The notes below the pieces were generated by a model, which had not been told where the DNA came from, did not search any database, and saw only the letters and a program-made list of their open reading frames with translations. 64,000 nt of DNA, taken from assembly GCA_963921795.1 (NCBI GenBank), contig OY997657.1, forward strand, positions 25,971,581-26,035,580. Direction: 5' to 3'. Both the position numbers and the translations under genes were made by a program. Position 1 is the first letter of the stretch; each line of letters starts with the position of its first letter. Below, one piece after another: positions 1,245 to 62,485 of this stretch. This DNA is from Nannobrachium achirus (lineage: Eukaryota > Chordata > Actinopteri > Myctophiformes > Myctophidae).

Positions 1245-1312
1245 CCAAAATAGCCGATCTACAAGCTCACAACCAGTGACGGGTTGTGAGCTTGTAGATC
1301 GTCTATTTTTGG
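1245..1312. repeat. Palindromic module, stand-alone copy
   Basis: The left arm reads CCAAAATAGCCGATCTACAA and the right arm its near-complement through GATCGTCTATTTTTGG. The arms meet in a short CAGTGACG tip. No flanking transposon termini were recognised, so this copy is either in an unknown host element or independent. Confidence 0.85.
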
Positions 1313-1476
1313 CACGAGACACCATCATTATGACGGAGCATATATTGGGCATAATGAATGAGGCCTTCTGGACTGTCACATGTCTGGATTCAGACCAATG
1401 GCCATCGCACGCATGCAGACCATGAAAAGCTGTGAGGGTGTGAAGCTCGCACTGCACAGTCCAAACATGTTGCATG

Positions 1477-1514
1477 CACGCACGCACGCACGCACGCACG
1501 CACGCACGCACACA
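1477..1514. repeat. (GCAC)n microsatellite
   Basis: About nine tandem GCAC tetranucleotides followed by a short CA run. The minus-strand open frames across it are repeats of Arg-Ala-Cys-Val. Confidence 0.95.
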
Positions 1515-2515
1515 CTGTATATCCATTAGTATATAAAGTATACTGTAAACTATTAATAGGCATACCAAAGTGTAGTATACAGTACTTTACGCATTGCCAG
1601 TACACGCACACACATATGCATGCAAGCACACACATACAGAAGCTCAAGCAGCAGGTAACATATGAATATCTATCTGTTGACAGAACATTCCTGACAACAA
1701 TTTTGTTCCCCTTGTTTCCAGTTAGAATTGAAATTCACTGCAGGTTTTTAAAAAGAGCCCTCTCTACAGACGGCTGTAATACCCCATGGAAGGTGTAATC
1801 AAAGTAATTACTATAGCACACAGGTGTTCCATGCTGCACGCCACTGAACACAGCGAAAGTCAGCGACAGTGGATGGATTAACCATAAGTGAAAAGAGAGG
1901 GGGGGAAAAAAAGAACCGAATTCACATCAAGTGTCATTATGGCCCCTTTATCGACAGAGTAAGTGCACAAACAAATGGCTTTTTTTAAATGTATTTCTTT
2001 TTTTGTCATCTGGCGCTTAACATGGACATTTTATGCTCCGTCTGTTCACGTTGCTTTGCTTCCATTTTTCAATTATGGTAATATAAATGTGGTAGAGTGA
2101 ATTATAAAAGAAGGACATGATTTTTTTAATCTTTAACAGAGATAGAGAGAGGGGGAAGGGGATACAGAGATAGAGAGAGAGAGAGAAGCATACTTGCTGC
2201 ATAACTCAATGCACTACTACAATACAGTATGTAAACACTATGAGCAATGGTGATTAGCTCTTGTGTGAAGAGACTCTTATTTCTGTATTGTATTAAATAT
2301 ATAAATACATATTTATTTATGCGTTCATTCATTTATCAAAGTGGCCCTCTCTTCATCCACGAAACAATGACATGAAATACCTTGATAGTGTGATTGCATT
2401 TAAATGATGTTTCTTTGGTTTCTCTGCTCCCTTCGGATCAGAGAATAGTGAATAGACATATGATCCCAATGAAAGCTCCCCATCTGCATGCATCCCACTC
2501 CAAATCTTTAAGCCG
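1515..2515. other. No recognised gene; imperfect GA tracts
   Basis: Only an imperfect purine tract (about 2140-2190, AGAGAGAGGGG-like) stands out. The rest is AT-rich single-copy-looking DNA. Confidence 0.5.
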
Positions 2516-2517
2516 TG

Positions 2518-2629
2518 ACGAGAGAGAAAGAGAGGGGGGTGCAGACAGAGAGAGAGAGAGATGGATATGAAGAGAGATGCAAAGAGTGGGAGTCAGAGAA
2601 GGGGAGAGAGGGGGGGGGGGGGGGGGGGC
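2518..2629. repeat. Purine tract with poly(G) run
   Basis: Imperfect GA repeats end in about 20 consecutive G residues (2609-2628), directly against the terminus of the next hAT copy. The polypurine strand could form triplex or quadruplex structures. Confidence 0.85.
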
Positions 2630-3120
2630 CTGTGGTGGAAAAAGTACTCACATGTATAAAAGTATCAATACTGCAATATAGAAACACTCCGTTACAAGTA
2701 CAAGTCTGGAATTCAAATGTGCTTGAGTAAAAGTATGAAAGTGTTGGGGTCAAAATATACTTATGTACCAAAAGTAAAAGTACAAAATGTCTGAAAATAG
2801 CAGATCTACAAGCTCACAGCGCGTCGCATCATGTGACGCGTTGTGAGCTTGTAGATCGGCTATTTTCAAATAGCCAAAAATGGGGCTAAAGTGGATTAAT
2901 GTATGTTTTATAATATAATCGTTTATATCTGCTAAGTAACGAGTAACTCAAGTTTTAAAATAATTGCAGTGGAGTAAAAGTACAATATTTGGATCCAAGA
3001 TGTAGTGGAGTAGAAGTAAAAGTACTGAAAACTGGAAATACTCAAGTAAAGTACAGATACCTCAAAACTGTACTTAAGTACAGTACTTAAGTGAATCTAC
3101 TTAGTTACTTTACAACTCTG
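2630..3120. mobile_element. hAT-type MITE (AAGTACTTTTACTT family), copy 1
   Basis: The left end CTGTGGTGGAAAAAGTACTC is a diverged form of the CAGTGGTGGAAAAAGTACTC end seen at 41864. The interior consists of repeated AAAGTAC/GTACTTTT motifs typical of an abundant non-autonomous teleost hAT family. The right end (TTACTTTACAACTCTGG) is degraded and I see no clean TSD. A full palindromic module sits at 2792-2868, flanked symmetrically by TGAAAATAG and CTATTTTCA. Confidence 0.8.
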
Positions 3121-59824: not shown

Positions 59825-59907
59825 ACCGTGGCTGACCTACAGCATTGGATGGAGCTGGACCAATAGTGATGCTGTCATATAGTCATGCAACATGCACACA
59901 GTGTGTC

Positions 59908-59983
59908 ACACACACACACACACACACACACACACACACACACACACACACACACACACACACACACACACACACACACACAC
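59908..59983. repeat. (CA)n microsatellite
   Basis: About 37 CA units. Confidence 0.96.
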
Positions 59984-60883
59984 GCAAATCATCAGGCAAC
60001 TCGCACGCACGCACACAAACACATACATCACAATGTCACACGGTCACGCTGACATGGCCCCATGCGTGACAGGCACGTCACATTATGTGTCATGTTTATG
60101 GGGGCATCAACAGAGCTGGTTTGTGTTTTTTGTATGTAAATGTCTGGGCAGGTTCAAAGTTAATGCATGTCAGTATCCAGGTTCACCTTGGCTCGGTGAT
60201 GCAGTGCAGAAAGTCGTGTCTATGGTCAGGTTGTAGCGTATAAGCTACACGTCCAAGTAACACGGACAGAAAACTGTAAGAGCATGTTTCATAAAAGCAA
60301 TAATTCTATGTGTTAAAGCCACTTTTAGTTTGCAGCGCCAAATGGCAAAACTGCTATGCTTACAACTTGTAATAAGAAAATATTAGCATATGCAATATTT
60401 ACATATATTAGCATCTATATGAAAACAACAAAATTAGAATATAGATGTATAAATAAAACAGAAATACCAAACCATGCATAACTGGTAGAACAACGGGTTA
60501 TGATTTCTCTATTAAAGAAAAAAAGTAAGTTTAGCAAAACATGCAATTATTGTATGCATAAAAGCGAGTCTTATGTAGTAAGGACTATTCAAAATGACAC
60601 ATCTCAACATTTCTTATGTATGGAGTTCAACCAACGCCACTCTGCTGTCAAACGCTCATGCTATATTTGATGTGATCCCACACTAACCGCACGCCATATT
60701 TCCTGACAGATATACGCGACCCATAAGTAATAGGCATTACCTTACGCGAGATTGACTAGGCTGATTTAAGACATCTGGGTGGAACGCATCCATGCTGTCA
60801 CCTTATTTTCATCTCTAACCTTGTATTGGTGCATTCATCCCCTAGAAATGGATTATACTAGCATTCCCGCCGTTTTTAATGAT
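59984..60883. other. No recognised feature
   Basis: AT-rich and repeat-poor. Confidence 0.45.
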
Positions 60884-61372
60884 TTAACTCTCAAATACCT
60901 GGAACGCGCCCGAGTCGCGTTATATTTTAACCACTTTAACCATTATTTTATGCTTTAACTTTAGAAAAATAGCAGATATATAGATCTGCTATTTTTGAAA
61001 AATCGTGAAAATGAGTGCAAGTCTTTGAATATCTTTGACCCGATCTTTGACCCGACTTCTAAATCCTTCCTCTAAATCATGCTGTTCTCAAACCTTTTCA
61101 TGTCAAGGACCCCCAAAATTACAGGTATTTGGCCACGGACCCCCATCTCAAAATATGTTGTTCCAGGGACCACCCAGAAGCAAATATTTGATTTACAAAT
61201 GTTTGCTTTTAAATAGATAATACTCAAAGACTTGCAAAGAAAAATCATGATTTTTCAAAAATAGCTGATCTACAAGCTTGCAGCGCAGCACTTGGTGCCG
61301 CGCTGCGAGCTTGTATATCTGCTATTTTTCAATTGTTAAAGCGGTCAATAATCCTCGGCCTAAATGGGTTAA
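60884..61372 (+). mobile_element. TTAA-type element carrying the two-module core, copy 4
   Basis: The element 60888-61368 is flanked by TTAA on both sides. The left end CTCTCAAATACCTGGAACGC matches the 58214 copy. The first module has collapsed to AAAAATAGCAGATATATAGA plus TCTGCTATTTTT (60964-60997). The second (61256-61330) is full length with scattered substitutions. Confidence 0.87.
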
Positions 61373-61852
61373 ATAATGCAGCAGTTCCATTGAAATTAAG
61401 CAGCGTGGAAGCATTACACACATGTAGGCACCTTTCCATATCCACAGTATGAGCCACAGTGAACTTGTCTATAGGTCAGATTACTATTTCATATGGTATG
61501 AAATATAAATGAGCCAAAGCTTTTTCAGACCCCCCCCCCCCCCCCCCCCCACCGCCCCCCTAATCACTTTCTTATATTTTTATCACAGTGGCAGTGGTGA
61601 TGGCGCTGGAATGACTTCCCATTCTAATCACACTGTCATACCCCGAGGTTAAACCTAGCCATTTTGCATACCAAAAGAAAATAGCCCTCAAACAGTGCCT
61701 TGATATAAGCCTTGATATAAATATATATGTAATCGTATTCCATTTATTCATGTTTCAGCCAGGCATTATAGGAAGAGAGCAAATCTATCAGCCACAGGAA
61801 GAGCACATTGTTGAGAACAGCCACTCCAAAACTTTCTTTAGTTTCTTCGTCT
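61373..61852. other. No recognised gene; poly(C) run
   Basis: A run of about 20 C residues at 61530-61550. Otherwise nothing. Confidence 0.5.
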
Positions 61853-62485
61853 CTGTACAACAGGGAAGTGCAGAGTGAATGTTAGAGAGGCAGGAGCTGA
61901 CATTTCTAAAAGAGCCTTTTGGTGGGAATATCGAAAATAGCAGACCTCCAAGCTCACAACGCGTCGCAGCGTGATGCGTTGTGAGCTTGGAGGTCGGCTA
62001 TTTATGGTGCATGATACCACACTGAACTAAGCGTAATCAAGTCAATACTGGAGAGGTGGCGTAATGGTATGGATTTCTACACAGAGAGGGCAATTCTTTC
62101 AACATAAGATGCCACATTCAAGTTCAGGAGGGTTTGGACAAGGCAATTAGCCAGTAGCTATGCCCCTCCCAAAAAGCTTTTGTCCAATGCTAGCTTAGAA
62201 TAACTTCCTGCTTGCCAAGGTTTGCCTTGGCAACAGCCTTGGCAAGCTGTCGGTTGCTAAGCTACCTGTAGCATTGAACAAAAGCTTTTAGGGGAGGGGC
62301 ATAGCTACTGGCTAATTCTCTTGAATGCTACCTTCAGGTATGGCATGGAAAGAGGGCATTTGCATTTCTTTCACCATAGTAGAAACTGTATTTTTGGTCT
62401 GGAAAGGGCAGTTTTTACAGACAGGTAAAAGGGCAGGGGCTCAAGCCCCCTTTGATGTCTATGTGTGCACGTGCCTGCTGTACAA
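61853..62485 (+). mobile_element. hAT-like MITE family F, copy 3, with nested MITE
   Basis: The element 61861-62477 runs CAGGGAAGTGCAGAGTGAAT to GTGTGCACGTGCCTG, with perfect CTGTACAA duplications (61853-61860, 62478-62485). This fixes the family as an 8-bp-duplication type. The module at 61932-62003 has the GACCTCCAAGC arm variant. A 165-bp MITE sits at 62149-62313. Confidence 0.93.
62145..62317. mobile_element. 165-bp inverted-repeat MITE nested in family F
   Basis: The element 62149-62313 begins AGCCAGTAGCTATGCCCCTC and ends with the complement. Arms of about 40 bases include AAAAGCTTTTGT(C)CAATGCTA. AATT flanks both sides (62145-62148, 62314-62317), and removal restores the uninterrupted GCAATTCTCTTG of the copy at 11088. 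A second internal hairpin, TTGCCAAGG against CCTTGGCAA, sits at the centre. Confidence 0.9.

Follow-up and report, generated by a model that had tools for sequence, protein, structure and literature searches.

Why should one and the same palindromic hairpin lie inside transposons that differ in their ends and in the duplications they leave at their targets? The question is raised by a 64,000-nucleotide stretch of the genome of the myctophid fish Nannobrachium achirus (assembly GCA_963921795.1, contig OY997657.1, forward strand, positions 25,971,581 to 26,035,580), here called the window and numbered from its first base. The hairpin, hereafter the module, consists of the arm AAAATAGCMGATCTACAAGC and its complementary arm, has a commonest form of 71 bp, and occurs at 45 places, most of them within non-autonomous DNA transposons of families that are lettered A to I below. 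That some ten otherwise unrelated kinds of host share it suggests that the module has spread from one to another, and the likeliest route, to be taken as tentative, is that of a MADE1-like palindromic miniature transposon that would have entered the founder of each host family once and then hitch-hiked with it.

Recurrence of the module

With at most three mismatches the arm is matched 66 times in the window, compared with a mean of 0.02 and a maximum of 1 in 100 shuffles. A first-pass annotation of this DNA had described the palindrome at 44 places, 29 with full and 15 with half or shortened copies, and all 44 were located at offsets of no more than about 10 bases; a further half copy at 49335-49354 (minus strand, two mismatches, host not assigned) brings the total to 45. 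The arm, at the same threshold, is present at all 29 full places and at nine of the 15 half places, while two half places (28011 and 60964) were recovered by a structure model (E-values 0.0013 and 8.5e-9), two (16031 and 44206) carry the arm with four mismatches, and a 22-bp remnant at 17139 and a degenerate half at 46825 were recognised from their position in host alignments; four of the 44 rest on weaker evidence than the others. Two-armed copies are 22 to 81 bp long, one tandem pair excepted. A covariance model built from 28 copies, which match it by construction, found 33 two-armed hairpins at E <= 0.01, namely these 28 and five others. A 34th match (41979-42081, E 0.0077) was excluded from the count because it is located in another inverted repeat (41933-42126), which lies within the E element near 42 kb and is taken as unrelated to the module. 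Copies were found through their arms, and the sampling therefore favours conserved ones.

These places are not independent: 19 of the 45 fall in family A, where most elements carry two modules. Family B accounts for five places, C, D and E for three each, and F, G, H and I for one each; eight have no assigned host, among them the one at 44201, inside the span of a C element.

Host elements and the number of acquisitions

The hosts do differ in their target duplications, as had been proposed: there are hAT-like hosts with 8-bp duplications, hosts with TTAA, and one family (B) with other 4-bp duplications. The names hAT and, for TTAA hosts, piggyBac-like are presumptive, being taken from end motifs and duplication length and not from proteins. 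Duplications of 8 bp flank the D elements 61861-62477 and 46648-46887, the E element 14498-15009 and the A1 elements, which have the ends CAGGGGYGTCRC (for example 5564-5988, 30283-30816 and 42774-43253). The hosts are not all of this type, as is evident from the TTAA elements 59226-59820 and 20039-20207 and from the B elements, whose ends resemble CGTCRYTGTCGGG and whose three copies with both ends show AAAT, TTAT and ATAG (boundaries set by eye). In a scan for hosts, an 8-bp-type element surrounded 11 of 44 modules and none of 300 control points, and a TTAA pair 8 of 44 modules versus 4 of 300 control points; of these eight TTAA calls three represent the A2 and F hosts, another four come from TTAA pairs in the interior of A elements, and the one around 8505 is probably due to chance. 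The 300 points constitute a second control, the first having given three positive points with the number of usable points unrecorded. Use of the target duplications as a clock was abandoned because the scan itself required seven of eight matching bases.

At aligned positions, identity between the modules of different family representatives is 77-95%. When 100-bp flanks beginning 10 bp from the module were compared, with one copy per family, only one of 28 family pairs (E-H) lay above all 40 shuffles, and three (A-C, E-G and E-H) exceeded the 95th percentile of shuffles, 1.4 being expected. Since the modules are alike but the flanks have little in common, common ancestry of whole elements fails as an explanation, except within the composite family A. 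Furthermore, the module occupies a fixed position within each multi-copy family (A to E), so that about nine acquisitions, rather than 45, explain the assigned copies.

Pairing, central losses and arm ends

The module is a near-perfect palindrome of MADE1-like size, with a core of 71 bp; copies folded together with their outer arm bases measure 75-91 nt and are paired over almost their whole length, and DNA folding of eight copies gave -27 to -44 kcal/mol with z-scores of -9.3 to -14.8. Across the 28 copies, 88.4% of cells are paired, versus 82.1% in shuffles and 32-48% in controls with a slid register. Changes matched on both sides number 73 cells, compared with 27.6 in shuffles and 9-26 in slid controls, although 15 of the 28 rows belong to family A and the cells are thus not independent events; a further covariation measure, pair types (one of five), was reached by 104 of 500 shuffles. 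Examples are the change from GATCTAC to GACCTCC in both arms in family D and that from AAAATAGC to AAAACAGC in family B. Matched changes in both arms, reported here for the first time, thus preserve the pairing.

Losses from the hairpin show a pattern of their own, likewise a new observation. In the six shortened copies that were compared with a full copy, 10-41 bp are missing and the centre of the deletion lies within 4.5 bp of the centre of symmetry. Palindromes are unstable, and extrusion followed by cutting and rejoining is expected to remove their centre; on this general ground the central losses would fit hairpin formation and processing.

At the outer ends of the arms, 12 of 20 flanks (a single copy for each family and side) have TA at a distance of 3-5 nt from the arm, versus 2-9 of 20 at nine control offsets, where the mean is 5; in three of nine families TA is found on both sides. 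The 3-5 bases between TA and arm are KTTG-like in most families and GCA or GCC in others, as judged by eye.

Divergence of the module and its hosts

In nine full-length A copies with intact flanks, to which this comparison was restricted, per-site divergence is 0.052 in the module and 0.181 in the flanks, the module being lower in all 36 pairs and the bootstrap ratio of flank to module divergence being 3.5 (2.3-7.7). Within A1, pairs of copies differ by 0.032 in the module, by 0.139 in the core and by 0.15-0.21 in the flanks, and even the element ends (first 12-20 bases, five elements) diverge by 0.067-0.080. Over 14 A modules, leaving out the rearranged outer flank of one and the inner flanks of two, A1 differs from A2/A3 by 0.042 in the module and 0.218 in the core, the corresponding values within A2/A3 being 0.056 and 0.247. 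Columns with a shared minority base number 2 of 71 in the A module (16 rows) and 55 of 257 in the core (10 rows). Family B (three pairs; 0.061 versus 0.16-0.22 in the flanks) and family D (one pair; 0.042 versus 0.10-0.17) agree. On the other hand, no low module divergence is seen in C, where a single pair differs at 9 of 57 module positions versus 0 of 38 in the outer and 7 of 32 in the inner flank, or in E, where three pairs differ at 33 of 205 module positions (0.161) versus 16 of 79 and 14 of 103 (0.14-0.20). Hence the variability of the module is about 2.5-4 times below that of its flanks in A, B and D, a new observation for which only family A offers many pairs; C and E show no such difference, and for this reason hyper-conservation was given up as a general law. 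Possible causes of the low divergence are recent exchange, homogenisation and constraint acting on active copies.

How the module may have spread

The explanation that we rank first, while giving it somewhat less than even chances, regards the module as an old miniature palindromic transposon with two arms of about 33-40 bp, a tiny loop and a TA target. Its arm, from the outside to the tip, would read about TA-KTTG-AAAATAGCMGATCTACAAGCTCACAACGCGTCGC, and the ends of the predicted parent transposon should start TA-KTTGAAAATAGC. A single landing in the founder of each of about nine non-autonomous DNA transposon families may have been followed by passive multiplication, the host transposases copying the module along with the host, and some copies may later have lost the hairpin centre through extrusion of the palindrome, cutting and rejoining.

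A model for such an element is MADE1, a human palindromic miniature inverted-repeat transposable element of mariner type and the source of hsa-mir-548, which is similar in size and shape and has another sequence. MADE1 is flanked by TA. The module differs from it in lying inside other non-autonomous transposons, in the variable spacing of its TA, in a tip and outer arm that vary with the host family, and in that neither a solo copy nor a parent transposon was recognised in the window. For size, an excerpt of PMC1784062 describes Made1 as a near-perfect palindrome of 80 bp with two 37-bp arms and a 6-bp spacer. The location of one element within another is common, as in nested insertions of miniature and long terminal repeat elements, and for plant long terminal repeat elements a weak insertion preference for palindromes is mentioned in an excerpt of PMC6911290; what sets the present case apart is a single 71-bp module that recurs in about ten host types, has fixed places in each multi-copy family and, in three of the five families tested, varies less than the sequence beside it.

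Several observations weigh against this explanation. Among 41 joined flank pairs searched in the window there is no clean empty site, and the non-self matches that span the junction keep the module or remnants of it: those at 5826-5985, 42777-42922 and 27937-28113, with shorter pieces of the first two, retain module pieces and are read as deletions, and the others are further module-bearing A copies. The match at 42777-42922 (TTTTCAAAAATAGCTAAAG) could also be an original site, although the 6-bp direct repeat AATAGC would make a deletion a sufficient explanation. No unambiguous target duplication surrounds the module, no solo copy with a clean target duplication was found and no transposase source was recognised, all within the window. 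Families F and G have no TA, and the variation of the TA-arm spacing from 3 to 5 is odd for a transposon end; TA being self-complementary, its presence is moreover indistinguishable from a palindrome that simply continues. In B, C, E and F the arm ends of the best copy are palindromic yet differ from family to family, not all losses are central (the copy at 30663 lost 9 bp in one arm, and half copies lost a whole arm), and the low variation of the module relative to its flanks in A, B and D is left unexplained. The earlier proposal of a hyperparasitic palindrome is thus sustained in part: one homologous palindrome does occupy non-autonomous hosts with three kinds of duplication (8 bp, TTAA and other 4 bp), but its active movement finds no support in the fixed places per family and in the lack of a clean empty site.

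Second in rank, possible but rather doubtful, is copying of the DNA hairpin with no transposase involved. The palindrome would stall or break replication, repair or template switching would copy the module with some neighbouring bases into another element at a short local match, and the same process would keep the copies uniform and extend the palindrome outward. Such extension is suggested by the best copy of some families, in which the palindrome runs on perfectly beyond AAAATAGC for 5 bp in B, 6 bp in C, 4 bp in E and 7 bp in F, with letters that differ by family; a control in which left and right flanks of different families were paired has a mean of 0.79 (4 of 168 at 4 or more, largest 5). 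However, the best copies of A, D, G and H continue for only 0-2 bp and the other C and E copies for only 1 and 2 bp, and the continuation could equally be the divergence of a once longer arm. The matched two-sided changes speak for this explanation. Against it, most copies of family A retain the arm mismatches of that family, and correction of one arm by the other is therefore not frequent. Module divergence between A1 and A2/A3 resembles that within either group, the core differing by 0.218 between them, the A core carries its two modules between different ends in A1, A2 and A3, and at 17141 a hairpin remnant forms the join between half a B element and other DNA; all three points accord with hairpin copying, of which no donor and recipient pair was caught in the window. 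A fish precedent by description, not by sequence, is Angel of zebrafish, a miniature inverted-repeat element that folds back. Angel is larger than the module, which differs also in having hosts with three kinds of target duplication; repeats like Angel are present within the hAT element Tol2. A model of spread by replication and stem-loops has been built on Angel, whose single strands fold back, as an excerpt of PMC12628747 relates.

Ranked third, and unlikely, is a cis-acting site that aids the multiplication of any host, either by binding a host protein or as an excision or replication hairpin, and that is kept by selection in active copies. The shared functional site that the annotation had offered as an alternative gains from the low divergence in A, B and D, where in A1 the module falls below even the element ends, from the scarcity of shared minority bases and from the maintenance of pairing although letters change between families. 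It loses from C and E, which lack this low divergence, and from the many host copies with shortened or half modules. Transposases producing 8-bp, TTAA and other 4-bp duplications should, moreover, not need one common site, and the arm-based finding of copies favours conserved ones.

It is very improbable that every host derives from one ancestral element by deletion or by exchange of ends, with the module as a leftover of that ancestor. This circumstance, under which the annotation would have withdrawn its view, holds within family A, where a core of a few hundred bp is common to A1, A2 and A3 although their ends differ, and might be glimpsed in the three flank pairs beyond the 95th percentile, E-H above all; across families it does not hold, as 25 of the 28 pairs lie at or below that percentile and termini and target duplications differ. 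Common origin was accordingly largely set aside, by the flank comparison, for B to H and retained in part for A1, A2 and A3. Least probable of all is a hairpin useful as RNA, for instance as a microRNA-like precursor, with incidental spread, because, although 71 nt is the size of a microRNA precursor and Made1 palindromes are named as a source of hsa-mir-548 in an excerpt of PMC1784062, no Rfam family matched the window at gathering thresholds and many copies are shortened.

Copies in family A

Three types of element share the A core with its two inverted modules, namely A1, the TTAA-ended A2 (59226-59820) and the A3 elements at 58180 and 60860, which are related to A2; the composite has passed between 8-bp and TTAA ends, in one or the other direction. 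The A3 left end differs from that of A2 (58180-61400 and 48180-48780), which points to end swapping between transposon types. At 5720-5893 and in other A elements the core also includes the beginning of a further hAT-like element (CAGTGGTGCTCAAACC) whose far end seems to be missing, which would make A a composite.

Among A1 elements, 13352-13837 carries the reference 71-bp copy on its left (13427-13497, plus strand; DNA fold -37.1 kcal/mol, z -13.0) and an inverted copy on its right (13684-13754, minus). Element 5564-5988, with target duplication CTCCCAAG, has a 61-bp module that lost 10 bp near its centre (5610-5670, plus), and 24149-24687 has one of 59 bp (24243-24301, plus) and one of 45 bp (24573-24617, minus), with 12 and 26 bp lost near the centre. 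Element 30283-30816, with duplication CGCATTCG, holds a partial tandem copy (30372-30427, plus) adjoining a 71-bp module (30428-30498, plus), and the copy with the 9-bp non-central loss in one arm (30663-30729, minus). A 71-bp module lies at 43112-43182 (minus) in 42774-43253. The sixth A1 element (49435-53644, CTTGACGT on both sides) contains a half module (53297-53320, plus) and a 71-bp module (53527-53597, minus), and is split by a 3.8-kb insertion that adjoins the arm of the former.

This insertion (49520-53290; ends TACCCAGGGGGCAAA) is bordered by TAT at either end, begins 6 bp away from the hairpin base and is itself an inverted repeat with two 1.48-kb arms of 97% identity. Each arm encodes the C-terminal portion of a protein whose end is rich in cysteine and, as we take it, CXC-like; the protein has no Pfam match at E 0.1 and 86 relatives, one of them 99% identical. 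For the mobile-element open reading frame at 51635-52384 the best named relatives come from the fishes Thalassophryne and Dissostichus, with 57-62% identity.

In A2 the element 59226-59820 has 71-bp modules at 59280-59350 (plus) and 59709-59779 (minus), and an element assigned by homology to it has a 38-bp module that lost 33 bp near its centre (48262-48299, plus) and one of 71 bp (48657-48727, minus). The A3 elements carry a 71-bp module with a repeated right arm (58293-58394, plus), one of 71 bp (58642-58712, minus), one of 30 bp that lost 41 bp at the exact centre (60966-60995, plus) and another of 71 bp (61258-61328, minus).

Copies in other families

In family B, 71-bp modules lie at 9549-9619 (element 9470-9707, duplication AAAT), 12623-12693 (12517-12766, TTAT; arms ending TAGTG/CACTA) and 23003-23073 (22894-23139, ATAG), and a short remnant hairpin at 28011-28033 belongs to an element of about 27908-28113 with one damaged end. 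The 22-bp remnant (17141-17162) marks the junction at which, in 17030-17260, a half B element meets non-B DNA exactly, as if at a recombination point.

The C elements (CAGTGGTTCTCAACC) were delimited by alignment only and comprise a 57-bp module at 8505-8561 (element about 8381-8735), one of 71 bp with arms ending ATTGTG/CACAAT at 41159-41229 (about 41049-41467), and a half module at 44090-44129 (about 43879-44540). In family D (CAGGGACTTG) there are a 48-bp module that lost 23 bp near its centre (11166-11213; element about 11088-11529), the 71-bp module with GACCTCC in both arms (61934-62004; 61861-62477, duplication CTGTACAA) and a degenerate half (46825-46850; 46648-46887, duplication CACAGCGC). 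Family E (CAGTGGTGGAAA) has modules of 73 bp (2794-2866; about 2632-3121) and 76 bp (14758-14833; 14498-15009, duplication CGTGCGTG) and a degenerate one (42248-42314; about 41863-42573).

Family F is the 169-bp TTAA element 20039-20207, with a 61-bp module at 20106-20166 whose arms end TTTGCCA/TGGCAAA; it lies in turn inside 19874-20317, with the 8-bp duplication AACTAAAG, in a nest of three levels. The G (63 bp, 1247-1309), H (81 bp, 16482-16562) and I modules (49134-49195, right arm shortened) adjoin the hAT-like ends CAGTGGTGTTGCAGCACC, CAGGGCTGTCACAA and CAGTGGTTCCCAAACG, one end being seen in each case. Copies with no assigned host further include a degenerate two-armed module (44745-44819), half copies at 4952-4971 (plus) and 29785-29804 (minus), a rearranged half copy near the TTAA end CCACATGAACCC whose arm has four mismatches (16011-16046, plus), a shortened degenerate copy (38971-39015), a degenerate half copy (57822-57866, minus) and the weak half copy with four mismatches within the C element (44201-44220, plus). 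Elsewhere in the window, at 20797-21435, a unit of about 92 bp is repeated in tandem, its copies being 93-95% alike.

Searches beyond the window

The 21-base arm had no match in viral or prokaryote contig collections, and a tighter hairpin pattern had none in the viral collection. A looser pattern matched 11 viral and at least 116 prokaryote stretches, which were considered as relatives of the module and taken for chance hairpins; among the loci examined, positions with TACAAGC or GATCTA in register agree with the 24-base arm at 18 of 24 at best. Arm strings gave a single match in the literature searched, a paper on sheep muscle, and no comparable shared module was found among titles and abstract openings.

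Meaning for transposon biology

In the general view, a non-autonomous element requires hardly more than its ends and subterminal sites. A 71-bp hairpin that lies in the interior of about ten host types with different ends, and whose variability is below that of its flanks in three of the five families tested and, in A1, below that of the element ends, points to one of two things: a parasite that lives on other parasites, or an aid to multiplication that acts in cis for elements in general. It is conceivable, if on balance improbable, that the module represents a gene-less hairpin that parasitises other non-autonomous transposons of several superfamilies, is handed on from one to another, remains more uniform than they are, and may benefit them in return by promoting their multiplication.

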